NCBI RefSeq assembly: GCF_028898845.1
Contig: NZ_CP118574.1
Span: 3,100,001 to 3,164,000, forward strand
DNA length: 64,000 nucleotides
Reading direction: 5' to 3'
Origin: Streptomyces sp. WZ-12
GTDB lineage: Bacteria; Actinomycetota; Actinomycetes; Streptomycetales; Streptomycetaceae
Part shown: in pieces, positions 14,826-27,701 of the stretch
How positions within the stretch are numbered: the stretch's first letter is position 1
Layout: every line of letters starts with the position of its first letter
The notes under the pieces: model-generated
Told to the model about the DNA's origin: nothing
Seen by the model: the letters and a program-made list of their open reading frames with translations, nothing else
Databases searched by the model: none
Translations under genes and position numbers: made by a program

Positions 14826-16085
14826 ATGTCGCTTCTGAACAGCTCCCTGCACGAGCTCGACCCCGACGTCGCCGCCGCCGTCGACGCCGAGCTCCACCGT
14901 CAGCAGTCCACCCTCGAAATGATCGCGTCGGAGAACTTCGCTCCGGTCGCCGTCATGGAGGCCCAGGGCTCGGTCCTCACCAACAAGTACGCCGAGGGCT
15001 ACCCGGGCCGCCGCTACTACGGCGGCTGCGAGCACGTCGACGTGGTCGAGCAGATCGCCATCGACCGGATCAAGGCGCTCTTCGGTGCCGAGGCCGCCAA
15101 CGTCCAGCCGCACTCCGGCGCGCAGGCCAACGCCGCCGCGATGTTCGCGCTGATCAAGCCGGGCGACACCATCCTGGGTCTGAACCTCGCCCACGGTGGG
15201 CACCTCACCCACGGCATGAAGATCAACTTCTCCGGCAAGCTGTACAACGTGGTGCCCTACCACGTCGACGAGAAGACCAACCTGGTCGACATGGAGGAGG
15301 TCGAGCGCCTCGCCAAGGAGCACCGCCCGAAGCTGATCGTCGCCGGCTGGTCCGCCTACCCGCGCCAGCTCGACTTCGCCGCCTTCCGCCGGATCGCGGA
15401 CGAGGTCGGCGCGTACCTGATGGTCGACATGGCGCACTTCGCCGGCCTGGTGGCCGCGGGCCTGCACCCCTCCCCGGTGCCGCACGCCCACGTCGTGACC
15501 ACCACCACCCACAAGACGCTGGGCGGCCCCCGCGGCGGTGTCATCCTGTCCACCGCCGAGCTGGCCAAGAAGATCAACTCCGCGGTCTTCCCCGGTCAGC
15601 AGGGCGGCCCGCTGGAGCACGTGATCGCCGCCAAGGCGGTGTCCTTCAAGGTCGCCGCGTCGGAGGAGTTCAAGGAGCGCCAGCAGCGCACCCTGGAGGG
15701 CGCCCGGATCCTGGCCGAGCGCCTGGTCCAGGACGACGTCAAGGAGCACGGCGTCTCGGTGCTCTCCGGCGGCACCGACGTCCACCTCGTCCTGGTCGAC
15801 CTGCGCGACTCCGAGCTCGACGGCCAGCAGGCCGAGGACCGCCTCCACGAGGTCGGCATCACCGTCAACCGCAACGCGATCCCGAACGACCCGCGGCCCC
15901 CGATGGTCACCTCCGGCCTGCGGATCGGCACCCCGGCCCTGGCCACCCGCGGCTTCACGGTCGAGGACTTCCGCGAGGTCGCCGACATCATCGCCGAGGC
16001 GCTCAAGCCCAGCTACGACCGCGAGGCGCTCCAGGCCCGGGTCACGGCGCTGGCCGAGAAGTACCCGCTGTACCCGTCGCTGTGA
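14826..16085 (+). CDS. glyA: Serine hydroxymethyltransferase
   Basis: The 419-residue PLP enzyme interconverts serine and glycine using tetrahydrofolate. The PLP lysine is Lys230 in [16 protein letters not shown]. Other family blocks are [19 protein letters not shown] near residues 34-52, [21 protein letters not shown] near 60-80, and [12 protein letters not shown] near 98-109. AGGAAG precedes the ATG. It lies 75 bp behind gcvH, so read-through would bring glycine cleavage, its one-carbon product and serine formation under shared control; sdaA then degrades serine. Three consecutive hairpins follow. Confidence 0.97.
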
Positions 16086-16090
16086 CGAAC

Positions 16091-16123
16091 CGGTCACCGG
16101 GGTGCCACGGCCCCCGGTGACCG
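16091..16123 (+). terminator. Hairpin 1 downstream of glyA
   Basis: Perfect 12-bp arms CGGTCACCGGGG and CCCCGGTGACCG around a nine-base loop, starting six bases after the glyA stop. No U-tract, as is common for Streptomyces terminator-like stems. Confidence 0.6.
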
Positions 16124-16125
16124 AA

Positions 16126-16155
16126 GCGGCGGGCCGCCCTTCCGCGGCCCGCCGC
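16126..16155 (+). terminator. Hairpin 2 downstream of glyA
   Basis: Perfect 12-bp arms GCGGCGGGCCGC and GCGGCCCGCCGC around a six-base loop, directly after hairpin 1. Confidence 0.55.
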
Positions 16156-16163
16156 CGCACCGC

Positions 16164-16192
16164 GCTCCGGGCCGAACTGCCCGGCCCGGAGC
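16164..16192 (+). terminator. Hairpin 3 downstream of glyA
   Basis: Perfect 11-bp arms GCTCCGGGCCG and CGGCCCGGAGC around a seven-base loop. It is the third stem in series; together they should strongly stop or stabilise transcripts. Confidence 0.5.
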
Positions 16193-16424
16193 CGCCGTTG
16201 ACCTCCCCGGACCGCCGGCCCCGACGGCCCCGCACCCCGCCGCCCGGCCGGCTTCACCGCCGCTGTTCTCCCGCCGGCCCTCCCGGCTTCTCCCGCCCGC
16301 CGCCTCCCGTCCGGCGGCAATCCCCGGCGAGCGGGTTACGCTCGACAGTCGGGCCGGAAACACCCCGTCCTGCCCCGATCTGCGCAACCGTCCAACCCCG
16401 AGCAGACAAGGGAGTACCGCCCCC

Positions 16425-17807
<1,383 letters not shown>

Positions 17808-17821
17808 CCCGCGGCACTGCG

Positions 17822-17867
17822 CGCCCCGGGCGCCGGCAGGGAGGAACTCCCGCCGGCGCCCGGGGCG
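17822..17867 (+). terminator. Terminator hairpin downstream of sdaA
   Basis: Arms CGCCCCGGGCGCCGGC (17822-17837) and GCCGGCGCCCGGGGCG (17852-17867) are perfect over 16 bp, with GGGAG/CTCCC extending the stem inside and TTT just after. It lies 14 bp beyond the sdaA stop and before the convergent small gene. Confidence 0.8.
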
Positions 17868-17894
17868 TTTGCGCGGGCCGCCGGCGGACCGGCC

Positions 17895-18179
17895 CTACCG
17901 CCCGATCTCCCAGGCGAACGGCGGGAGTTCGCAGGCCCGGACGTAGATGTCCAGGGCCTGGGCGGCGGGGACGAAGGGGTGGACGCGGGCGCCGTCGAGG
18001 CCGGGGAGCAGCCGGGCGCAGTGGTGGACGCAGCCGGCGACCTCCCGGCCGTGCTGGTCGACGAGGGTGGCGGCGTCGGGCGGACCGTCGCACGGGGTCG
18101 GGTCGGCGGGCGCGGCGGCGGGGCAACGGTGGGGGCCGCCCATCGGGGCGACCGGCGGGATGCTCGTCTGCTGCTTCAT
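17895..18179 (-). CDS. Hypothetical small protein (94 aa)
   Basis: I do not recognise this protein. It is 94 residues with four cysteines (HRC, PC, GCVHHC) in its first two thirds and no signal peptide or membrane segment. The ATG at 18179 has a GGGGGGATC purine run upstream. It is the last gene on the minus strand behind the two PAP2 genes (142-bp gap) and could be part of that transcript. The C-terminal ALDIYVRACELPPFAWEIGR looks folded rather than random. It could bind metal through the Cys/His cluster, but that is inference. Confidence 0.55.
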   Translation of the reverse strand: MKQQTSIPPVAPMGGPHRCPAAAPADPTPCDGPPDAATLVDQHGREVAGCVHHCARLLPGLDGARVHPFVPAAQALDIYVRACELPPFAWEIGR

Positions 18180-18320
18180 TGCGATCCCCCCAGGGCTTGC
18201 GCGGTCAACGGGTGCGGGCGCGGCACCGGCGGTGGCCGGGCGCGGCCTCCGGTGCTCAGCACAGTGGCTGCTCATCGCGGCCGAGGTCCATGCGGCCTTG
18301 GGCAAGACCTGGGCCGATCG

Positions 18321-19049
18321 TCAGCGATTCATGGGCAAGCTGCTCGGAGGGCTTGCGCGGCCCCCGTCGGGCGGCGGGACGACCAGGGGGTCGAGCAGCA
18401 GCGCGAGGGCGAGCAGGGCGGCGGCCAGCAGCCAGCCGGCCAGCACGTCGCCGGCCCAGTGGACGCCCAGGTAGACCCGGGTGAGGCCGACGCCGACGGC
18501 CCACAGGGCGAGCAGCGCGCACCAGGGGCGGCCGGTGCCGGGGCGGCTGCGGTGCAGCACGCCCCAGGCCAGCAGGCCGGCGGCCAGCGCGGAGGTGGTG
18601 GAGTGGCCGGAGGGGAAGGAGTAGCCGGTGGCGCCGCCGATCCAGTCCGCGGCCGGCGGCCGGGGGCGGGCGAGCAGCTCCATCAGGCCGTAGCGGACGG
18701 CCTGGCAGGCGGCGAGGACGAGCACCGCGCCGGCCGCCGCGCGGAGCCGGCCGCGGGCGTCGCGGGCGGCCAACAGGCCGGCGAGGAGCGCCATCAGGTA
18801 GGGGACGACGCCGGTGCCGGTGGCGGTCAGGGCGCTCGCCAGGGAGCGCAGCGGCTCCCCGCGGTGGGCCAGCGCCCAATGCAGCGCGCCCCGTTCGGGA
18901 GCGAACGGGGCGCCGTGCCGCGCGGCCGTGGTGACGGCCAGGGCGGCGAAGAGGGCGGCGAGGACGGCCGCCAGGACGAGCAGGTGCCTCGGGGGCGCAC
19001 CGAAGCGCGGGCCGGTGGCCGGCTCCGGCGGCGCCCCCGAGGGCGTCAC
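18321..19049 (-). CDS. PAP2-family membrane phosphatase (motif-1 lysine replaced)
   Basis: A 242-residue protein with about six membrane segments. Motif 2 SFPSGHS (residues about 143-149) and motif 3 TRVYLGVHWAGD (near 188-199) are intact, with the nucleophilic His and its Asp partner. Motif 1 should be K-x6-RP; here the segment is LMELLARPRP, with Met at the lysine position (codon ATG), so the phosphate-binding Lys is missing. Family members dephosphorylate lipids such as undecaprenyl pyrophosphate or phosphatidic acid. The GTG at 19049 overlaps the previous stop by four bases, so it is co-translated with the intact PAP2 gene; a regulatory or partner role is possible. Confidence 0.85.
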   Translation of the reverse strand: MTPSGAPPEPATGPRFGAPPRHLLVLAAVLAALFAALAVTTAARHGAPFAPERGALHWALAHRGEPLRSLASALTATGTGVVPYLMALLAGLLAARDARGRLRAAAGAVLVLAACQAVRYGLMELLARPRPPAADWIGGATGYSFPSGHSTTSALAAGLLAWGVLHRSRPGTGRPWCALLALWAVGVGLTRVYLGVHWAGDVLAGWLLAAALLALALLLDPLVVPPPDGGRASPPSSLPMNR

Positions 19050-19705
19050 CGGGGGGACACCAGGGGGCGCAGCGGGGTCTCCAGTACGCGTTCGACGAGC
19101 GGGGCGGCCCGCCGGGCGAGCGGCATCAGGACCGCGGCCACCAGGGCGCCGACGATCAGGCCGACCAGCACGTCGTGCGGGTAGTGGGCGCCGACCCAGA
19201 CCCGGGAGGCGCCCATCAGCAGCGCGGCCGGGATGGCGATGGCACCGAGCCGGCGGTCCAGCAGCAGCAGCGCGATGGCCGCGGAGGCGGCGATGACGGA
19301 GTGGTTGCTGGGGAAGGACCAGTCACCCATGGGCGGGCACGGCTCGACGGTGATGACGTCGTGCAGGGTCTGGCAGGGGCGCTGTTCGTGGAAGAAGCTC
19401 TTGATCACGTCGTTGGCCACGTAGGCCAGGACCACGATGACCGGGACGGCCAGCGCCATCGCCATCGTCACGGGGGCGGAGTACCGGCCCTCCCCCGGGC
19501 CCAGCCGGCGGCGGGAGCTGCCGCCGAGCCGCTGCCGGGCGCGCCACCAGCCGGCCAGCATCAACAGCGCGAAGACCCCCAGCCCGAAGTCGGTCCAGTA
19601 GGAGACCAGGACGTTGAGGAAGTGCGGCATGTCCTGGGCGAAGCCGGTTACGGACTTGTACAGGCCGCCGTCGATCGAGGCTCCGCCGAGGGCGAGGTCG
19701 GTCAC
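19046..19705 (-). CDS. PAP2-family membrane phosphatase (all three motifs present)
   Basis: A 219-residue membrane protein with complete motifs: KSFFHEQRP (K-x6-RP), SFPSNHS (PSGH with Asn), and SRVWVGAHYPHD. This is the layout of BcrC/undecaprenyl-pyrophosphate phosphatases and related lipid phosphatases, with the active site facing outside. The loop between motifs 1 and 2 has two cysteines (QRPCQT and VEPCPP) that could form a disulfide. It starts at GTG 19705 with GGAG upstream. It lies 106 bp behind the DedA gene on the same strand, which suggests one transcript with DedA first. Confidence 0.88.
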   Translation of the reverse strand: MTDLALGGASIDGGLYKSVTGFAQDMPHFLNVLVSYWTDFGLGVFALLMLAGWWRARQRLGGSSRRRLGPGEGRYSAPVTMAMALAVPVIVVLAYVANDVIKSFFHEQRPCQTLHDVITVEPCPPMGDWSFPSNHSVIAASAAIALLLLDRRLGAIAIPAALLMGASRVWVGAHYPHDVLVGLIVGALVAAVLMPLARRAAPLVERVLETPLRPLVSPR

Positions 19706-19811
19706 TGGGCTTACTCCTTGGCGGGTCGATGCGTGGTGCGTGGGCTGGGGCTACCGGGCGGCCTCGATGGGCGCCGACCGCCGGTGTGCACCAGCAAGTG
19801 TGCCGGGTCGT

Positions 19812-20537
19812 TCAGGGTGCCGGTGGCGCGGTGGCGGGATCCGGCGCATCGGTGGGCTCCTCGTCCGACCCGCGGGACGCGCCGCGCCGGCGGGAACGGA
19901 GCACCTCCAGGGCGATCGGGGTCAGTGATGCCAGGACCACCAAGCCGACGACGGGCAGCAGGTAGCGGTCGACGTTGGGCACCGACGAGCCCAGCGCGTA
20001 TCCCGCGAAGGTGAGGCCGAACGTCCAGATCAAGCCACCGATGATCTGCCAGAGGGCGAAGCTGCGGGCCGGCACGTTCAGGGCGCCGGCGAGCGGGTTG
20101 AGCACGGTGCGGACGATCGGCACGAAGCGGGCCAGCACGATCGCCTTGGCGTGGCCGTAGCGGGCGAGGTACTCCTCGGCGCGGGCGGCGCCCTCCTGCA
20201 GCTTGCGGGAGCGGCCGCGGGCGAGCAGGGCGCGGCCGCCGCGGCGGCCGATCCAGTAGCCGGTCTGCGAGCCGAGGAGCGTGCCGACCGCCGCGGCGGC
20301 CAACACCTGCGGCAGGGCGAGGTGGACGGCGCCGCCGACGCCGGGCGCGCACAGCAGCCCGGCGGTGAACAGCAGCGAGTCGCCGGGCAGGAAGAAGCCG
20401 ACCAGGAGGCCGGTCTCGGCGAAGAGGACGACGGCGACCCCGAGCGCGCCGAAGGCGGCGAGCAGGGAGCCGGCGTCGAGGACGTTGACCGCCTGGGTGA
20501 CGGTGTCGACGTGCAGTGCAGCGGCCGCTACGGCCAT
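19812..20537 (-). CDS. DedA-family membrane protein (VTT/SNARE-associated domain)
   Basis: A 241-residue integral membrane protein with DedA features: FAETGLLVGFFLPGDSLLF near residues 38-56, the YLARYGHAKAIVLARFVPIVRTVLNPLAGA block near 120-149 with the conserved ARF-x3-R-x3-P motif, and four or more membrane segments. Some DedA members (UptA/PopT-type) flip undecaprenyl phosphate; others affect membrane homeostasis. The start ATG 20537 is preceded by GGGAGGGG; frames further upstream are antisense to blaI. A Gly/Ser/Asp/Pro-rich tail follows the last segment. It leads an apparent operon with two PAP2 phosphatases and shares the operator region with blaI. Confidence 0.88.
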   Translation of the reverse strand: MAVAAAALHVDTVTQAVNVLDAGSLLAAFGALGVAVVLFAETGLLVGFFLPGDSLLFTAGLLCAPGVGGAVHLALPQVLAAAAVGTLLGSQTGYWIGRRGGRALLARGRSRKLQEGAARAEEYLARYGHAKAIVLARFVPIVRTVLNPLAGALNVPARSFALWQIIGGLIWTFGLTFAGYALGSSVPNVDRYLLPVVGLVVLASLTPIALEVLRSRRRGASRGSDEEPTDAPDPATAPPAP

Positions 20538-20590
20538 GTCAGTGGCCCCTCCCATAATGGGTTGTGGGCCTGCCGAGCGGCGGACCCACC

Positions 20591-20627
20591 GTCTACAGTT
20601 CCGTAGACGGTCTACGGAACTGTAGAC
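20591..20627. promoter_or_regulatory. Perfect 37-bp palindrome, candidate BlaI operator shared by blaI-M56 and dedA
   Basis: GTCTACAGTTCCGTAGAC (20591-20608), one central base, then the exact reverse complement (20610-20627). Each arm also contains a TAC-type dyad, GTCTAC...GTAGAC, so it holds two dyads in tandem, as in BlaI/MecI operators, whose core is TACA/TGTA. It lies 25 bp upstream of blaI and 54 bp upstream of dedA. The embedded TACAGT on both strands could be the -10 box of each promoter. Confidence 0.8.
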
Positions 20628-20651
20628 GACGGAAAGGGTGGAGGCCGTTCC

Positions 20652-21101
20652 ATGTCGGAGACACCACCCGCGCAGCGCCGCCCCGCCGGCGAGCTGGAGG
20701 CGAGCGTGCTGGCGGCCCTCTGGGCGGCCGGCGGCCCGCTGACCCCGGCCGAGGTGCAGGGCGAGCTGGACGGCCGGCTGGCCCGGACGACCGTCACCAC
20801 CATCCTCAGCCGGCTGCACGACAAGGGCGCGGTCTCCCGCACCCGGGCCGGCCGCGGCTTCGCCTACTCCCCGATACACGACTCCGCCGGGCTCACCGCC
20901 CGGCGGATGCGCAGCGAGCTCGACAAGCAGGACGACCGCACCACCGCGCTCGCCCGCTTCGTCTCCGAGCTGACCACCGAGGACGAGCGACTGCTCCGCG
21001 CGCTGCTGGACGAGGCGGAGCCGGGGGATGCGGCTGCCGACGGCGCGGGCCCGCACGGCGCCGCCGACGGCCACCGCCCCGCACCCGGGGCCACGTCGTG
21101 A
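20652..21101 (+). CDS. BlaI/MecI/CopY-family winged-helix repressor
   Basis: The 149-residue protein has the BlaI winged helix at residues about 10-75: GELEASVLAALWAAGGPLTPAEVQGEL then RTTVTTILSRLHDKGAVSRTRAGRGFAYSP (recognition helix and wing), followed by a dimerisation region up to about residue 120 and an Ala/Gly/Pro-rich tail. In the family the repressor is cleaved or inactivated through its M56 partner. GGAGG (20639-20643) precedes the ATG. Its stop overlaps the M56 gene start by four bases, as expected for a repressor/sensor pair. Confidence 0.93.
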   Translation: MSETPPAQRRPAGELEASVLAALWAAGGPLTPAEVQGELDGRLARTTVTTILSRLHDKGAVSRTRAGRGFAYSPIHDSAGLTARRMRSELDKQDDRTTALARFVSELTTEDERLLRALLDEAEPGDAAADGAGPHGAADGHRPAPGATS

Positions 21102-22057
21102 TCTTCGCCGTCTGGGTCCCGCTGCTGATGCCGCTGCTGGCGGTGCCCGCCGCCCGCCGGCTCGCCGAGTCGCTGCCGCCGCGGGCGGCGGCCTGGCTGC
21201 TGACCGGCTGCGCCGCCGTGCTCGCCGCCTGCACGGCCGCGGCGCTCGGCCTGCTCGCGGTCGCCGGGGCGCTGCGGCTGCCGCCGGTCGCCGCCTTCGG
21301 CCACCTCCAGCGCGGGCTGCCGGGCACCGACGCGGTGGTGACCGTCCCGGCCGCCCCGATCGCCGGCGCGCTGCTGGCCTGCGGCGTGATCGCCGTCGCC
21401 CGCCGCGCGCTGCGGCACCGCGCCGAGCTGCGCGCCGCCCGGCGCGCCGCCGACGGCCACGCCCTCGCCGGCGACCTGTGCGTCCTGCCGGACGCGGTGC
21501 CCGACGCCTACGCCCTCCCCGGCCGCCCGGACCGGGTGGTGGTCACCGCCGGGATGCTGCGCGCGCTGCCGTCGGCCGAGCGGGAGGCCCTGTTCGCCCA
21601 TGAGCGCGCTCATCTCGCCGGCCGCCACCACCTCTTCCTGCTGACCGTCGCGCTGGCCGCGGCCTGGCACCCGCTGCTGCGCGGCCTGCGCGCCCCGCTG
21701 GCGTACGCGCTGGAGCGCTGGGCGGACGAGGCCGCCGCCTCCCGGGTGGGCGACCGCCAGCTCACCGCCCGCGCGATCGGCCGCGCCGCGCTGGCGACCC
21801 GCACTCACCCCGCGGCCCCGCCCCGCCCCGGCCCCGCGCTCGCCGCGACGACCGGCCCGGTCCCCCGCCGCGTCGCCGCCCTGCTCGGCCCCGAGCCCCC
21901 GACGGCCCGCCCCCGCCGCGCCGTCCCCGGTGCCCACCGCCTGATAGCCGCCGCCCTACTGGCCTGCGTCGCCTTCTCCGCCGCGGGCGCGGTGGACGCC
22001 GCGGCCGACCTCCACCAGAACGTGGAAACGGCGCAGGGCGAGCATCCGGGGCGGTAG
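21098..22057 (+). CDS. M56-family (BlaR1/MecR1-like) membrane metallopeptidase
   Basis: The 319-residue membrane protein has the zinc motif HERAH at residues 168-172 and a downstream glutamate in LERWADEAAA near residue 206, as in BlaR1-type proteases. Membrane segments are visible near residues 1-20, 30-60 and 88-110 and a last one near 290-310. It lacks a C-terminal penicillin-binding sensor, so the signal is not a beta-lactam bound in BlaR1 fashion; the sensor may be the membrane part itself. Start GTG 21098 overlaps blaI (GTGA). The gene ends at a hairpin shared with the convergent kinase gene. Confidence 0.92.
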   Translation: MIFAVWVPLLMPLLAVPAARRLAESLPPRAAAWLLTGCAAVLAACTAAALGLLAVAGALRLPPVAAFGHLQRGLPGTDAVVTVPAAPIAGALLACGVIAVARRALRHRAELRAARRAADGHALAGDLCVLPDAVPDAYALPGRPDRVVVTAGMLRALPSAEREALFAHERAHLAGRHHLFLLTVALAAAWHPLLRGLRAPLAYALERWADEAAASRVGDRQLTARAIGRAALATRTHPAAPPRPGPALAATTGPVPRRVAALLGPEPPTARPRRAVPGAHRLIAAALLACVAFSAAGAVDAAADLHQNVETAQGEHPGR

Positions 22058-22067
22058 GGCGGAGCAC

Positions 22068-22093
22068 GGAGCGGCGGACAGCCCCGCCGCTCC
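22068..22093. terminator. Hairpin between convergent M56 and histidine kinase genes
   Basis: Perfect 10-bp arms GGAGCGGCGG and CCGCCGCTCC around a six-base loop, 11 bp after the M56 stop. It has no U-tract but is positioned as a bidirectional terminator in the 166-bp convergent gap. Confidence 0.6.
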
Positions 22094-22223
22094 CCACCCG
22101 GCGCCCGGACCGCACGGCGCCCCGCGGACACCAGGGCGAGCCCGTCAACTCCCGCCCGGCGCCCGGCCGTTGGCGCCCCACGAGTGCACGGCACCCCGTA
22201 ACGCCCCGCCACGGCAGGCCCGC

Positions 22224-23729
22224 TCACCCCACCGCGCCCCCGACCTCCTCCGCCCCTTCGTCGGCCGGCTCCGGGGCGTCCCTCGCGACCGTGAAGCCCA
22301 GGCGGGCGCCGCCGCCGGGGCGGGGAGCGGCGAAGGCCCGGCCGCCGTGGGTCAGGGCTATCTCACGGACGATGGCCAGGCCCAGGCCCGAGCCGGGGAG
22401 GCCGCGGGCGGCCGGGGCGCGGTAGAAGCGGTCGAAGACGTAGGGCAGGTCGCACTCGGCGATGCCGGGGCCGCGGTCGAGGACCTCGACGCGGGCGCCG
22501 GTGACCACCACCTCGATCGGCGCGGTCCCCTCGGCGTCGAACTTGGCGGCGTTCTCCAGGAGGTTGCCGACCGCCCGGTGCAGGGCGGCCGGGCGGCCCG
22601 CGACCACCGCCGGGCGGTCGGTGCGCACGGTGATCTCCCGGCCGGTGCGCCGGCGGGTCGCGGCCACCGCCCGCTCGACGACCTCGGCCAGGTGCACCTC
22701 GGACGCCGGGTCGTCGCCGTGCTGTCCGGCGGCCAGCGCGACCAACTCGTTGACGAGATCGGTCAGTTCGCGGGCCTCGCCGGACAGGTCGGCGAGGAGC
22801 TCCTCGCGGGCGTCCGGCGGCAGCTCGTCGAAGCGCTTGAGCAGCGAGATGTTGGTGCGCAGCGAGGTCAGCGGGGTGCGCAGCTCGTGCCCGGCGTCCT
22901 GGACGAGCCGCTGCTGGTCGCGGATCGCGACGGTCAGCCGGCCGAGCATGTCGTCGAAGGCCCGGCCGAGCCGGGCGACCTCGTCCCGGCCGGTCACCGG
23001 CACCTGCACATCGACCCGGCCGTGCCCGGCGACGCTCTCCGCGGCCGCGGTCAGATGGACCAGCCGCCCGGTGATCCGGCGGGCCAGCCACCAGCCGACG
23101 GCCCCGGCCAGCGCGATCACCCCGGCGGCCAGCAGCACGGTGCGCTGTTGGAGCGCGGCGAGCAGGTCCTCGGTGCCGCTGAACTTCTGGGCGACCTGGA
23201 CGGCGCCGCGGCCGCCGCCGAGCGCCACCGTGGCGACGTGGTACTCCGTCTCGCCGACGACGGCGACCCGTTCCTCGAAGCGGCCGGCCTCCCGCTGGGC
23301 GGCCAGGCGGCGTTCGCCGTCGCCCACCGGGAGCGCGGGGCGCCCGGCCTCGGCGATCCGCCCGTCGGCGGTGAGCACCTGGACGTCTGTGCGGGTGGCG
23401 CCGGCCAGTTCGTCCCGCGGCCCGCCGGGGTCGCGGCCGGGGCCGGTGGCGTAGTCGGCGACCGTGTGCGGCTCCTGTTGCACCTGGGCCCGCAGGTCCT
23501 GGACGACCTCGGTGAAGAACGACTTCTCGTCCATCCGCACCAGCCGGGCCGCCGCGTCGTAGCTGAGGAACCCGACCAGCACCGTCACCCCGGCGGCGCC
23601 GGCGGCGAAGGCCAGCGCGAAGGAGGTGCGCAGGCTGGCCGGCTTACGGGCGCGCAGCCAGGCAGCCAGCCACCGGCGGACCCGGTGGGTCCCCGGCAGC
23701 CGGGCGGACGGACCGCGGCGCCCGGACAC
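22224..23729 (-). CDS. Sensor histidine kinase (MprB-like, OmpR-linked)
   Basis: A 501-residue kinase: membrane segment near residues 35-60, an external sensor region to about 190, a second membrane segment near 190-212, a HAMP region (RRITGRLVHLTAAAESVAGHG...), HisKA with the phosphorylated His in DAGHELRTPLTSLRTN near residue 278, and an HATPase with N-box RAVGNLLENAAKF, G1 VLDRGPGI and G2 GSGLGLAIV. The GTG start lies one base after the response-regulator stop. The architecture resembles mycobacterial MprB-type envelope-stress kinases; the signal is unknown. The Glu-rich C-terminal tail is unusual. Confidence 0.92.
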   Translation of the reverse strand: MSGRRGPSARLPGTHRVRRWLAAWLRARKPASLRTSFALAFAAGAAGVTVLVGFLSYDAAARLVRMDEKSFFTEVVQDLRAQVQQEPHTVADYATGPGRDPGGPRDELAGATRTDVQVLTADGRIAEAGRPALPVGDGERRLAAQREAGRFEERVAVVGETEYHVATVALGGGRGAVQVAQKFSGTEDLLAALQQRTVLLAAGVIALAGAVGWWLARRITGRLVHLTAAAESVAGHGRVDVQVPVTGRDEVARLGRAFDDMLGRLTVAIRDQQRLVQDAGHELRTPLTSLRTNISLLKRFDELPPDAREELLADLSGEARELTDLVNELVALAAGQHGDDPASEVHLAEVVERAVAATRRRTGREITVRTDRPAVVAGRPAALHRAVGNLLENAAKFDAEGTAPIEVVVTGARVEVLDRGPGIAECDLPYVFDRFYRAPAARGLPGSGLGLAIVREIALTHGGRAFAAPRPGGGARLGFTVARDAPEPADEGAEEVGGAVG

Positions 23730-23730
23730 C

Positions 23731-24462
23731 TCAGTCCTCCCGGAGGACGTAGCCGACGCCGCGCACCGTGTGGATCAGCGGCCGGCTGCCCGGCACGTCC
23801 ACCTTCCGCCGCAGATAGCCGACGTAGACCGCGAGGTTCTTCGAGCCGGGTCCGAAGTCGTAGCCCCATATCCGGTCGTAGATCGTCGAGTGGTCCAGGA
23901 CGATCCCGGCATTCCGGGCCAGCAGCTCCAGCAGCTCGAACTCGGTGCGGGTCAGCTCCAGTTCGCGCTCCCCGCGCCAGGCGCGCCGCGAGGGGCCGTC
24001 GATCCGCAGGTCGGCCGCCTCGACGACGCCGCTCTCCGCGGCCCGGGCGTCGTACCCCTCGCCGGGCCCGGCGCCGTCGGCCGCCCGCGACGGCTGGGCG
24101 GTGCGCCGCAGCAGCGCCCGCAGCCGGGCGAAGACCTCCTCGATCTCGAACGGCTTGACCACGTAGTCGTCGGCGCCGGCGTCGAGTCCGGCGATCCGGT
24201 CCGCGGTCTCGACCCGGGCGGTGAGCATCAGGATCGGGGTGCGGTCCTGTTCGGCGCGGAGCACCTGGCAGACCTGGAGCCCGTCGATCCCCGGCATCAT
24301 CACGTCCAGCAGGATCACGTCCGGCCGTTCGCGGTGGGCGGCGGCCAGCGCCTGGATGCCGTCGGCGACGGCGGTGACGCGGTAGCCCTCCAGGGTCAGC
24401 GCGCGTTCCAGCGCGGTGCGGATGGGGCGGTCGTCCTCGGCCAGCAGCACGGAGTGGGTCAC
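23731..24462 (-). CDS. OmpR-family response regulator (MprA-like)
   Basis: The 243-residue protein has a receiver domain with acidic pocket EDD (residues 9-11), phosphoacceptor Asp in VILLDVMMPG near residue 53, Thr in LTAR and Lys in VVKPFEIEE near 104-112, then a Gly/Ala-rich linker of about 35 residues and a winged helix with the transactivation loop (TRTEFELLELLARN, HSTIYDRIWGYDFGPGSKNLAVYVGYLRRKV, IHTVRGVGYVLR). Its stop is directly followed by the cognate kinase. The ATG at 24462 begins the canonical receiver strand. Confidence 0.95.
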   Translation of the reverse strand: MTHSVLLAEDDRPIRTALERALTLEGYRVTAVADGIQALAAAHRERPDVILLDVMMPGIDGLQVCQVLRAEQDRTPILMLTARVETADRIAGLDAGADDYVVKPFEIEEVFARLRALLRRTAQPSRAADGAGPGEGYDARAAESGVVEAADLRIDGPSRRAWRGERELELTRTEFELLELLARNAGIVLDHSTIYDRIWGYDFGPGSKNLAVYVGYLRRKVDVPGSRPLIHTVRGVGYVLRED

Positions 24463-24745
24463 CCGGCAAGTCTGCCAAGGCCCCCCTCCCTGGTGCGGGT
24501 CCCCCCGCGCGGCCGACCCCCGCCGGGCGCTTTCTTACCGCGCTCTCACCCGCGCTTACCGGCCTCTCACCCGGGGCACGCCCTCGGCTTACCCGCCCCC
24601 GGGACGGTGGCCGGTGCCGGACGGGCCGCCCACGGGACCGGCCGGCCGCCGCACGGACGGCCCGGCGCCGAGGGGGCCCGGGCGCCGATACCGACACCCG
24701 TGGCCGCGCCCCCGGAACACCTCGCAGAGACCCCGCACGACACCT

Positions 24746-25999
24746 ATGAAGATCACTTTCCTGCTGCACAACGCGTACGCCGTCGGCGCCCCGCTGCGCG
24801 CCACCCTCGCGCTCGCCGCCGCGCTCGCCGACCGCCACGACGTCGAGCTGGTCTCGATGCTGCGCCACCGGGAGGTCCCGCGGTGCGCGGTGGACCCCCG
24901 GCTGCGCCTGGTGCCGCTGGTGGACACCCGGGTGGGCAGCGACGACATGGCGCACCCGCTGTTCGGCGCGCCCGCGCTGGACTTCCCGCGCGCCGATCCG
25001 CACCACCACCAGTACAGCCGGCTGGTCGACCTCCGGGCCGCGGAGTTCCTGCGCGGCACCGACGCCGACGTCCTCATCGGGACCCGGCCGGGCATCAACG
25101 CCTATCTGGCCCGCTTCGGCCCCCGCCGGGCCCTGCGGATCGGCCGGGTGCCGCTGCGGTACGACGCGCACGGCGCCCCGCTGCTGGCCGAACTCGTCGG
25201 CCCCTACCGGGCGTTGGACGCGCTGGTCACCACCACCGAGGCGGAGGCGGCCCATTGGCGGGCGCGGCTGTCGCTGCCCGGTGTGCGGGTGCTGGCGGTG
25301 CCGACCGTCGTCCCGCCGCCGGACGCCCCGCCGACCGGCCCGGACGCGGAACCGGCGGCGGCCCGCGCGGCGGAGCGGGGCGCGCCGACGCTCGTCGCGG
25401 CCGGCCCGCTCGTCCCCGGCGAGCGCTTCGACCTGCTCGTCGAGGCGTTCTCCGCGGTCTGCGCCCAACACCCGGGCTGGCGGCTGCGGATCCACGGCGA
25501 GGGCCCGGAACGCGCCCGGCTGCGCAGCCTGATCGACGGGCTGGGGCTGGCCGGGCGGGCGGAGTTGGCCGGGCCGCGGACGCCGGACGGGGCGGAGTTC
25601 GCGGGCGCGACGCTCGCCGCGTCGGCCTCCGACGCCGAGGCGTCCGGGCCGGCCCTGGCCGAGGCGATGCGGCGCGGCGTCCCGGTCGTCGGCATCGGCC
25701 GGCCGCCCGGCCCGACGGAGCTGCTCCAGGACGGCGGCGGGGGCGGGGTGTTGGTGCCGCCCGACGACGGACGAGCCCTGGTGGGGGCGCTGTTGGAGCT
25801 GGCCGAGGACCCGGAACGGCGCCGGGCGATGGCCACGGCCGCGCTGGAGAGTGCCCGCCGGCACGGCCCAGGGCAGGTCGCCGAGTGCTACCGGGCGCTG
25901 ATCGCGGAGCTGCGCGCCACCCGCCGGGCCCGGTTCGTCCGCCGCGTGTTCAGCCTGGCCCTCGCCCCGGCGCCGGCCCGCAGAAACGAACGAAGCTGA
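24746..25999 (+). CDS. Glycosyltransferase, group 1 (GT4-like)
   Basis: A 417-residue GT-B fold protein. The N-terminus MKITFLLHNAYAVGAPLRATLALAAALADRHDVELVSM is the typical Rossmann start; the second domain has the donor-binding region ASASDAEASGPALAEAMRRGVPVVG near residues 292-315, with the E-x7-E motif, and a PTELLQDGGGGGVLVPPDD segment. No membrane segment or signal peptide. The sugar donor and acceptor are not clear, and no polysaccharide cluster surrounds it. The ATG at 24746 is supported by family N-terminus, but its ribosome site is weak; an Arg-rich tail ends the protein. Confidence 0.85.
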   Translation: MKITFLLHNAYAVGAPLRATLALAAALADRHDVELVSMLRHREVPRCAVDPRLRLVPLVDTRVGSDDMAHPLFGAPALDFPRADPHHHQYSRLVDLRAAEFLRGTDADVLIGTRPGINAYLARFGPRRALRIGRVPLRYDAHGAPLLAELVGPYRALDALVTTTEAEAAHWRARLSLPGVRVLAVPTVVPPPDAPPTGPDAEPAAARAAERGAPTLVAAGPLVPGERFDLLVEAFSAVCAQHPGWRLRIHGEGPERARLRSLIDGLGLAGRAELAGPRTPDGAEFAGATLAASASDAEASGPALAEAMRRGVPVVGIGRPPGPTELLQDGGGGGVLVPPDDGRALVGALLELAEDPERRRAMATAALESARRHGPGQVAECYRALIAELRATRRARFVRRVFSLALAPAPARRNERS

Positions 26000-26216
26000 A
26001 ACGGCCGGACGAACAGGACCGGTCCACCCACCCGTCCCTCCCACCCCACACACCCCAACCGCGCCTCACGTCACCAACTCGCCGGCGCCGTCGGGAACTT
26101 CGGCGCGGCAATCTGGCGTCTCCGGTCGTGAACATGCTGAACTGCTGAGGGGGCGACTGCCGCTTCGCGCAGATGACGCTTCGCTTTTCCGTAGGTCCGA
26201 CGGCAGGAGGCCGCTC

Positions 26217-26771
26217 ATGCTGCACGGTGTCGATGTCAGCTCCTACAACACCGGATATTCCGCCACGGGACTGGACTTCGTCCTGATCAAGGCGACCGAG
26301 GGCCGCTCCTACGTCAATCCGCACCAGTCGGCGCAGGCGGCGCGGGCCCGCGAGGCGGGGGCCGTGGTCGGCTTCTACCACTTCCTGTGGCCGGGCAACA
26401 TCGCCGCCCAGGCCCGCTACTTCGTGGAGAGGTGCGCGTCGGCGCACGGCGACGTCCTGGCCGCGGACTGGGAGACCACCGGCGCCGGCTCCTACGCCAG
26501 CAACGCGCAGAAGGACCAGTTCCTCCAGGAGGTCAAGAAGCTGCGCCCCACCCACCGGGTGCTGCTCTACTGCAACCGCGACTTCTGGCTGCACCGTGAC
26601 ACCACCTCGTACGCCGCGGACGGGCTGTGGATCGCCGACTACGTCGCGGCCGGGCACCCGCGGATCAAGGCGAAGTGGCGGATCCACCAGTACACCGACA
26701 CCCCGCTGGACAAGAACGTCGCCTCCTTCGGCAGCAGGGCCGAGCTCAAGAAGTGGGCGCACCCCGCATAA
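26217..26771 (+). CDS. GH25-family lysozyme-like protein without a signal peptide
   Basis: A 184-residue single-domain protein with GH25 landmarks: LHGVDVSSYN at the N-terminus (catalytic-site Asp), VLIKATEG near residues 23-30, FYHFLWPG near 55-62, the acidic pair AADWET near 81-86, and QYTD near the C-terminus. GH25 enzymes cleave peptidoglycan between N-acetylmuramic acid and N-acetylglucosamine. Unlike most secreted muramidases it has no signal peptide or cell-wall domain and starts right at the catalytic core. GGCAGGAGG precedes the ATG. nadE lies 99 bp downstream on the same strand. Confidence 0.9.
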   Translation: MLHGVDVSSYNTGYSATGLDFVLIKATEGRSYVNPHQSAQAARAREAGAVVGFYHFLWPGNIAAQARYFVERCASAHGDVLAADWETTGAGSYASNAQKDQFLQEVKKLRPTHRVLLYCNRDFWLHRDTTSYAADGLWIADYVAAGHPRIKAKWRIHQYTDTPLDKNVASFGSRAELKKWAHPA

Positions 26772-26870
26772 ACTTCTCGGGCAGTACCCCGATACGCCTG
26801 GCCGACACCGCGCGCGACCCGATCCCGCGGTGGGTGAACAGCGCGTGACGAAGAGCGTGAAGGAGCACCC

Positions 26871-27701
26871 GTGACGGACCCGGCGGCCAAGGCCCTGCAG
26901 CAGGAGATAGCCCAGGAACTCCGGGTGACCGCGGAGTTCGACGCCGCCCGGGAGATCGAGCGCCGGGTGTCCTTCCTCACAGCGCAGCTCACCTCCACGG
27001 GGCTGCGCTCCCTGGTGCTGGGGATCAGCGGCGGGGTCGACTCCACCACCACGGGTCGGCTCTGCCAGCTCGCCGTGGAGCGGGCCCGCGCCGAGGGGCA
27101 CGACGCGACGTTCTTCGCGATGCGGCTGCCCTACGGGGTGCAGGCGGACGAGAAGGACGCCCAACGGGCGCTGGACTTCATCCGCGCCGACCGCCTGCTG
27201 ACCGTCGACGTCCGGCCGGCCAGCGATGCCGCGCTGGCCTCCGCGCTGGACGGCGGCGTCGCCTTCCGCGACGCCCACCAACAGGACTTCGTGCACGGCA
27301 ACATCAAGGCCCGCCAGCGCATGATCGCCCAGTACGCGGTGGCGGGCGCGGAGGCCGGCCTGGTGGTGGGCACCGACCACGCCGCCGAGGCGGTCTCCGG
27401 CTTCTTCACCAAGTTCGGCGACGGCGCGGCCGACGTGGTCCCGCTGACCGGGCTGACCAAGCGCCGGGTGCGCGCCGTCGCCCGAGCCCTGGGCGCCCCC
27501 GCCGAACTGGTCGAGAAGGTCCCGACGGCCGACCTGGAGACCCTCGACCCGGGCAAGCCCGACGAGGACGCGCTGGGCGTCAGCTACGACCAGATCGACG
27601 ACTTCCTGGAGGGCGAGCCGGTCGAGGAGGCCGCGTTCGAGGCGATCGTCCGGCGCTACCGCCTCACCGCCCACAAGCGGGCGCTGCCGATCGCTCCCTG
27701 A
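26871..27701 (+). CDS. nadE: NH3-dependent NAD+ synthetase
   Basis: The 276-residue enzyme makes NAD from nicotinate adenine dinucleotide, ATP and ammonia. It has the ATP pyrophosphatase P-loop [12 protein letters not shown] near residues 47-58, [34 protein letters not shown] near 165-199, and a C-terminal [12 protein letters not shown] segment. Length matches ammonia-dependent NadE (about 275 residues), with no amidase domain. GTG 26871 has AGGAG (26861-26865) five bases upstream. Confidence 0.96.

Follow-up and report, generated by a model that had tools for sequence, protein, structure and literature searches.

What does a BlaI-type repressor control when the membrane protease encoded beside it has no domain for sensing beta-lactams? 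The question is raised by a locus in a 64,000-nucleotide stretch of contig NZ_CP118574.1 of Streptomyces sp. WZ-12 (hereafter the window, with its first letter as position 1), in which a blaI gene and a gene for an M56/BlaR1-like metalloprotease run rightward, and a dedA gene and two PAP2 phosphatase genes run leftward. Having compared this locus with its relatives, we consider it somewhat probable that BlaI and the protease form a two-way switch over dedA-PAP2-PAP2, as genes that would recycle the lipid carrier. The host genome comprises 9.5 Mb in two contigs (completeness 100), and the best-scoring named relatives of the window's BlaI belong to Streptomyces sp. CB02959 and S. noursei. The features of the locus are as follows.

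18321-19049, minus strand: PAP2b, second PAP2 phosphatase of the operon (Pfam PAP2, 8.8e-19; alignment of 10 sequences)
19046-19705, minus strand: PAP2a, first PAP2 phosphatase of the operon (Pfam PAP2, 4.3e-24; alignment of 12 sequences)
19812-20537, minus strand: DedA (VTT-domain) protein (Pfam VTT_dom, 3.1e-23; alignment of 13 sequences)
20554-20559, minus strand: CATTAT, possible -10 element of dedA, kept in nearer relatives and absent from many others
20590-20628: 39-bp perfect palindrome with the tandem operator inside (19-nt arms, 1-nt centre)
20592-20607: operator site A, TCTACAGTTCCGTAGA (16 bp, TCTACn6GTAGA)
20611-20626: operator site B, TCTACGGAACTGTAGA (16 bp, TCTACn6GTAGA; 19 bp from site A)
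20652-21101, plus strand: BlaI/MecI-family repressor (Pfam Penicillinase_R, 1.1e-23; profile match to solved BlaI/MecI structures)
21098-22057, plus strand: membrane zinc metalloprotease, M56/BlaR1-like (Pfam Peptidase_M48, 1.4e-10; alignment; structure model; BlaR1 fold matches)

A tandem operator linked to DedA, PAP2 and BlaI

An earlier note on this DNA had described the gene order, the strands and a gap of 114 bp between dedA and blaI, all of which agree with the coordinates; the protease gene overlaps blaI by 4 bp. It had also described a 37-bp perfect palindrome with BlaI-type cores in that gap. The palindrome is indeed perfect, its length is 39 bp, and the conserved unit within it is the pair of TCTACn6GTAGA sites. 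Among perfect palindromes with a gap of 0 or 1 it is the longest in the window, the runner-up having 10-nt arms, and we reject a pure chance origin because arms of 19 nt are expected only about 2e-5 times in the window. The full palindrome was found in none of 42 loci picked by BlaI protein alone (330 bp before blaI searched), the best operator palindrome there measuring 17 bp (L034); because relatives keep only the half-sites and their spacing, we also reject perfect symmetry as a functional feature. Site B, the operator half nearest blaI, probably overlaps blaI's own promoter. A scan with the sigma-70 consensus found no promoter and one weak terminator, inside dedA. Rfam at gathering thresholds gave no match over 15000-27000.

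Among the 42 loci, 30 have a BlaI 67-94% identical to that of the window and 12 are more distant (L059-L070). The earlier note had proposed the linkage of BlaI, M56, DedA and PAP2 in relatives as a check, and the linkage held up: the divergent neighbour is DedA in 26 of the 30 closer loci and PAP2 in the other four (L037, L039, L045 and L046), with DedA in this position in 27 of the 42 overall. Both sites are present in the 19-bp register in 26/30, one site only in L037, L039 and L055, and two sites 25 bp apart in L045. Eighteen distinct operator 41-mers have 30 invariant columns (12 of them imposed by the search pattern), and the inner bases vary. Three of the 12 distant loci have one TCTAC-type site and nine have none. 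The PAP2-DedA-BlaI-M56 block also occurs on a Streptomyces linear plasmid (NZ_CP109189.1; NCBI annotation), with transposase genes on both sides and both operator sites, 19 bp apart. On a second plasmid (NZ_CP108443.1) the frames at the DedA and M56 positions are short and annotated as hypothetical. A response regulator, often with a kinase, follows the PAP2/DedA genes in L103, L108, L110, L119, L120, L121, L124, L135 and others; it matches the window's regulator at 33-38% and may be another regulator of these genes.

We also searched genomes with the pattern CTACn6GTAGn5CTACn6GTAG, which holds no protein information, and with the reversed pattern as control. The tandem pattern matched 86 of 295 Streptomyces genomes and the control none. 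In a class-wide draw it occurred in 10/394 genomes, all 10 among the 40 Streptomyces genomes drawn; with matches in 0/354 genomes outside the genus, there is no sign that the class as a whole shares the operator. We analysed 75 places in 69 genomes (30 loci and 40 further places of the genus scan and 5 new places of the class-wide draw), leaving out five second places and the remainder of the genus-scan places; distances are to tblastn matches, so that another small gene may lie between. Within 700 bp, a DedA (58) or PAP2 (15) gene pointing away from the operator is found at 73 of the 75 places, the exceptions being L098 and L112; because the scanned genomes are related, these counts are not independent events. 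BlaI lies within 700 bp at 48/75 places, every one of which also has DedA or PAP2. The 25 DedA/PAP2 places without BlaI at this distance (in L109 and L130 the distance is 1.3-1.5 kb) face FTR1-EfeO (7), DUF347 (2), NiCoT (1) or other genes. Because partners across the operator vary in this way, it is with DedA/PAP2 that the operator goes. Control stretches, 30 around UppP and 9 around one-mismatch matches, had DedA/PAP2 in 1/39 (L247). That stretch (G161:C8), which has PAP2, also holds UppP, BlaI and M56.

The places without a nearby BlaI allow the regulator to be sought in trans. Our set consisted of 21 of the 22 genomes having a DedA/PAP2 place that lacks a near BlaI (G059 was left out) together with G137, whose place, L098, has neither DedA/PAP2 nor BlaI nearby. 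A BlaI homologue is present in 22/22 (best match 50-84% identity), and 17 of the 22 best-match genes have [AT]CTACn6GTAG[AT] upstream of the gene itself. Eight trans BlaI proteins, chosen among these 17, were placed in a tree from which L084 and L251 were omitted as their translated matches contained a stop, and all eight fall within a supported (100/97) clade of DedA-linked BlaI. UppP-linked BlaI proteins (6/7 in the tree) form another clade and TerD-linked ones a separate one. Our strongest evidence for joint control is that the gene of a repressor and an operon not linked to it apparently share one operator. What comparison establishes is a conserved operator that is repeatedly linked to DedA/PAP2 and, in cis as well as in trans, to BlaI, and the earlier proposal that BlaI acts both ways on the dedA-PAP2 operon gains strong comparative support from linkage, the pattern scan, the trans sites and the tree. 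That BlaI exerts shared control of both directions is, we judge from these data, very probable.

The proteins and the case for lipid-carrier recycling

The window's BlaI belongs to its Pfam family (Penicillinase_R, 84.2 bits against a cut-off of 22.6), and a profile built from 12 sequences matches 2g9w (the closest, which we take to be Mycobacterium tuberculosis Rv1846c), 1p6r, 1sd6, 1sd4 and 1okr, a set that includes structures of staphylococcal BlaI and MecI. M56 partners that lack a sensor are common beside BlaI. The protease here carries HERAH at 168-172, with H168, E169, H172, E206 and D210 invariant in 21 sequences. The zinc-protease residues of BlaR1 are H201, H205, E242 and D246, and the E-to-D spacing is the same in both proteins (excerpts of PMC9834060). 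By its HEXXH motif with downstream Glu and Asp, the protein is thus predicted to be a membrane gluzincin of the M56/BlaR1 type. Pfam assigns it to Peptidase_M48 only, and a search of the genome with PF05569 (Peptidase_M56; E 1e-3) did not return this gene; NCBI names an orthologue M56 family metallopeptidase. Its structure model (pLDDT 89) has long helices and a loop near residues 59-78, and the top Foldseek matches are BlaR1 chains, at a probability of 0.94-1.00 but E-values of 0.06-0.44. The last long helix spans 277-312 and is followed by 7 residues, and because the model stops there the protein has no penicillin-binding sensor; Pfam likewise gave no match to a C-terminal sensor domain in it, which sets it apart from BlaR1/MecR1 receptors. 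The earlier description of an M56 protease without a beta-lactam sensor domain therefore stands.

In DedA, E41 and D53 are 12 residues apart and R137 and R143 six. The corresponding re-entrant-helix residues of YghB are E39, D51, R130 and R136, and the spacing and the acidic and basic residues of the window's DedA match the COG0586 subfamily of undecaprenyl phosphate (Und-P) flippases (passages of PMC10127716). E41, R137 and R143 are invariant in 13 DedA sequences, and L083 has Glu at the position of D53. No convincing solved relative of DedA came out of a sequence search. PAP2 phosphatases are defined by the catalytic motifs KX6RP, PSNH and SRx5HxxxD. PAP2a has all three (the first as K102-x6-RP), and PAP2b has the other two and, in 10 sequences, an invariant Met for the Lys of KX6RP, so that its activity may differ.

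Undecaprenyl pyrophosphate (Und-PP, or C55-PP) is dephosphorylated by BacA and PAP2 proteins, and Und-P is flipped by DedA and DUF368 proteins (excerpts of PMC12826051). UppP/BacA was found in 27 of 30 genomes searched and is absent from the other three, the window genome and its close relatives G175 and G265 (the latter 94% complete), all of which have the same locus. With UppP/BacA absent, the known route to Und-P that remains is through PAP2 enzymes, which suggests that some PAP2 in these genomes, not necessarily PAP2a or PAP2b, dephosphorylates C55-PP.

UppP also recurs beside other BlaI genes. Across 22 genomes with 77 BlaI match rows (E below about 1e-22) and 48 UppP matches, UppP lies within 5 kb of BlaI in 8/48 cases, where uniform placement would give 0.2 (P 6e-11, taking no account of relatedness). 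In L253 and L255, BlaI-M56 faces a glycosyltransferase-UppP pair, and the two variant sites there keep the 19-bp spacing; L257 has the same arrangement with a DedA remnant before the glycosyltransferase. In L252, UppP is directly divergent from BlaI, and in L254, BlaI, M56, PAP2 and UppP follow in succession with TTTAC-type sites before blaI, PAP2 and UppP. The link is mainly with other BlaI pairs, having TTTAC or CCTAC half-sites, and these pairs suggest that a switch of this type has repeatedly come to stand over enzymes that perform one step without being homologous. Two unlinked UppP genes (L214 and L258) do carry the TCTACn6GTAGA site; as a general member of the regulon UppP is not supported, the site being present in only one of the 30 UppP loci that were taken for their best scores. 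A further gene of the window has relatives in these settings:

24740-25999, plus strand: glycosyltransferase, possibly a loose associate of the locus (Pfam Glycos_transf_1)

In L253, L255 and L257 its relatives (51-54% identity) stand with UppP opposite BlaI-M56, and in L124 a relative and DedA lie on either side of the operator.

We infer five elements of the proposed switch, namely binding, repression, proteolysis, substrates and signal, as follows. BlaI dimers would sit on the two adjacent sites and repress both promoters, that of dedA-PAP2-PAP2 to the left and that of blaI-M56 to the right. A membrane or late cell-wall signal would be read by the membrane part of the protease, and BlaI would be inactivated by proteolysis; its removal would open both operons together. 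Outside the cell PAP2 would convert Und-PP to Und-P, and DedA would flip Und-P back inside, making the return of the carrier faster. That carrier recycling is the output of the switch we hold, from the protein families and their partners, to be reasonably probable; that carrier stress or late wall stress is its signal is a tentative suggestion, for which the chances fall a little short of even.

Several findings weigh against this reading. Below the NCBIfam cut-offs for UptA, SepP and PgpB lie DedA and both PAP2 proteins, DedA reaching 52.3 bits against 250 for UptA and so not being assignable to that equivalog, and with 8 DedA and 7 PAP2 genes in the host genome the main operon may be a different one. 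The scarcity of the site at UppP loci belongs here too, as does the DedA remnant of L257 (4152-4622), which has an internal deletion and is probably inactive because the part holding R137 and R143 is lost. The presence of BlaI in every genome of the trans set is weak evidence by itself, since BlaI may be common in the genus, and 5 of its 22 best-match BlaI genes have no site upstream. Similar half-sites precede TerD, TerB, a second BlaI-M56 pair, DUF347, EfeO/DyP, FTR1-EfeO, NiCoT, TatA and other genes; we know of no role for Ter, FTR1-EfeO, DUF347 or NiCoT genes in carrier recycling. The lipid-carrier recycling proposed by the earlier note thus has indirect support, from the DedA residues (as given in parts of PMC10127716), the lack of UppP/BacA and the other BlaI-M56 pairs beside UppP, whereas a pure lipid-carrier sensor is not established because the same type of site precedes Ter, iron-uptake and DUF347 genes.

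Alternative explanations

These sites are the basis of the rival that survives best, a broader envelope or metal/redox stress regulon. In it, a single type of operator would serve several related BlaI-M56 pairs that respond to metal, pH or membrane damage, and carrier recycling would be just one of the outputs, beside Ter, FTR1-EfeO-DyP iron uptake and DUF347. In the window's own genome (G000), exact or one-mismatch sites lie at EfeUO, at DUF347/EfeO, at GlsB-TerD/alcohol dehydrogenase and at a cluster of a second BlaI, M56, TerD and TerB, and EfeUO, DUF347 and NiCoT are the genes faced by 7, 2 and 1 of the 25 DedA/PAP2 places without a near BlaI. On the other side stand the presence of DedA/PAP2 at 73/75 tandem places and the separate clade of TerD-linked BlaI. 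A strict single-site pattern matched 22/30 genomes (the reversed pattern matched one, G286), and in 20 single-site stretches taken from its matches 24 of 25 sites have no partner at 19 bp, so that two repressors may divide the sites. We regard this regulon as unlikely, if still a serious contender; the sites may belong either to one envelope/metal response of wider reach or to BlaI paralogues whose operators are nearly identical and which divide the sites among them, the tandem form being for DedA/PAP2.

Five loci of G000 illustrate these sites and pairs. At C1:4757369-4760294 (L022) a second BlaI-M56 pair is divergent from TerD and near TerB, and because the locus has three single sites built from half-sites of this type, one exact and two with one mismatch, cross-talk with the window's BlaI is possible. 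An operator-like site at C1:1212193-1212208 (L027) precedes a gene for an FTR1-EfeO fusion, after which comes a DyP peroxidase gene; another at C1:1254102-1254117 (L025) separates a DUF347 gene from one that is EfeO-like. At C1:1277620-1277635 (L026) an exact TCTACn6GTAGA has a GlsB-TerD pair on one side and an alcohol dehydrogenase gene on the other, an arrangement that G191 (L201) shows too. A third BlaI-M56 pair, at C1:347159-350100 (L024), is divergent from a putative diacylglycerol glycosyltransferase and then a polysaccharide deacetylase (judged by eye).

The operon could instead serve phospholipid handling, with DedA scrambling or flipping phospholipid, the PAP2s acting as phosphatidylglycerophosphate or phosphatidate phosphatases, and BlaI-M56 guarding the balance of membrane lipids. 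PgpB is the best-scoring NCBIfam model of PAP2b and accounts for the best solved relatives of PAP2a, and the substrate range of a PAP2 protein is not readable from its sequence. BlaI-M56 pairs elsewhere flank UppP, which to our knowledge is not a phospholipid phosphatase, and DedA has the residues of the Und-P type (COG0586) and not the phospholipid-type pattern of COG0398 (PMC10127716, in part); we therefore think this reading improbable. That BlaI controls its own gene only, the dedA operon being a bystander kept adjacent by descent, would fit the position of site B and a possible -10 of dedA's own about 30 bp from the operator, but is very improbable given the 25 DedA/PAP2 places that retain the tandem operator without BlaI within 700 bp and four genomes that lack DedA at this place and still have one or two sites next to PAP2.

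Beyond the two-way switch over dedA-PAP2-PAP2, a more speculative proposal, to which we give a low probability, is that sensorless BlaR1-type proteases of Streptomyces detect the lipid carrier or its shortage, with the membrane part of M56 reading the state of the carrier, BlaI being removed and recycling switched on. Such a design would appear again in distinct BlaI clades, each with its own, unrelated enzyme for one step (PAP2 and UppP), and would be plasmid-mobile as a cassette.

Relation to known systems

Staphylococcal genes are ordered blaR1-blaI, whereas the repressor gene comes first at the window's locus. The locus resembles BlaI-BlaR1 and MecI-MecR1 in having a repressor of the same Pfam family and a membrane zinc protease with HEXXH..E..D (PMC9834060, in part), and differs from them in that the protease lacks the penicillin-binding sensor domain and the targets would be DedA and PAP2 rather than beta-lactamase or PBP2a. 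It also resembles M. tuberculosis BlaI (Rv1846c), whose regulon extends beyond one operon to blaC, atpH, sigC, ftsQ and Rv1303 (excerpts of PMC8265638 and PMC12565901); the main text of PMC12565901 does not contain the word DedA. In some COG0586 proteins, DedA and PAP2 domains are joined (passages of PMC10127716), whereas the window has separate genes next to a repressor-protease pair. The SigM response of Bacillus subtilis includes bcrC and uptA. There is a further likeness to this system, which, as Roney and Rudner reportedly described in 2024 (cited in PMC12826051), is a stress response governing the use of the lipid carrier. SigM differs as a sigma-factor system, in which we know of no BlaI and no protease of the M56/BlaR1 family.

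A term search of the main text of a study of the S. coelicolor transcriptome under cell-envelope antibiotics (PMC3123327) found no mention of DedA or BlaI. The earlier note had put forward BlaI-M56 with DedA-PAP2 as a possibly undescribed combination, and no BlaI-DedA/PAP2/UppP system was found among titles and abstract starts from an open-access collection, subscription papers not being covered. BlaI-protease switches are already known; control of DedA-PAP2 by one was not found within that scope and is what appears to be new.

DedA has only recently been tied to the flipping of Und-P, and bacteria often keep several DedA proteins; regulatory or environmental specialisation has been raised as a possible reason for this redundancy (part of PMC10127716). 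The locus offers one apparently regulated DedA set with its operator, present in 86 of the 295 Streptomyces genomes sampled, and a possible role for BlaR1-like proteases that have no sensor domain. If the switch does answer a shortage of carrier, it would lend itself to use as a reporter for antibiotics trapping undecaprenyl phosphate or pyrophosphate.

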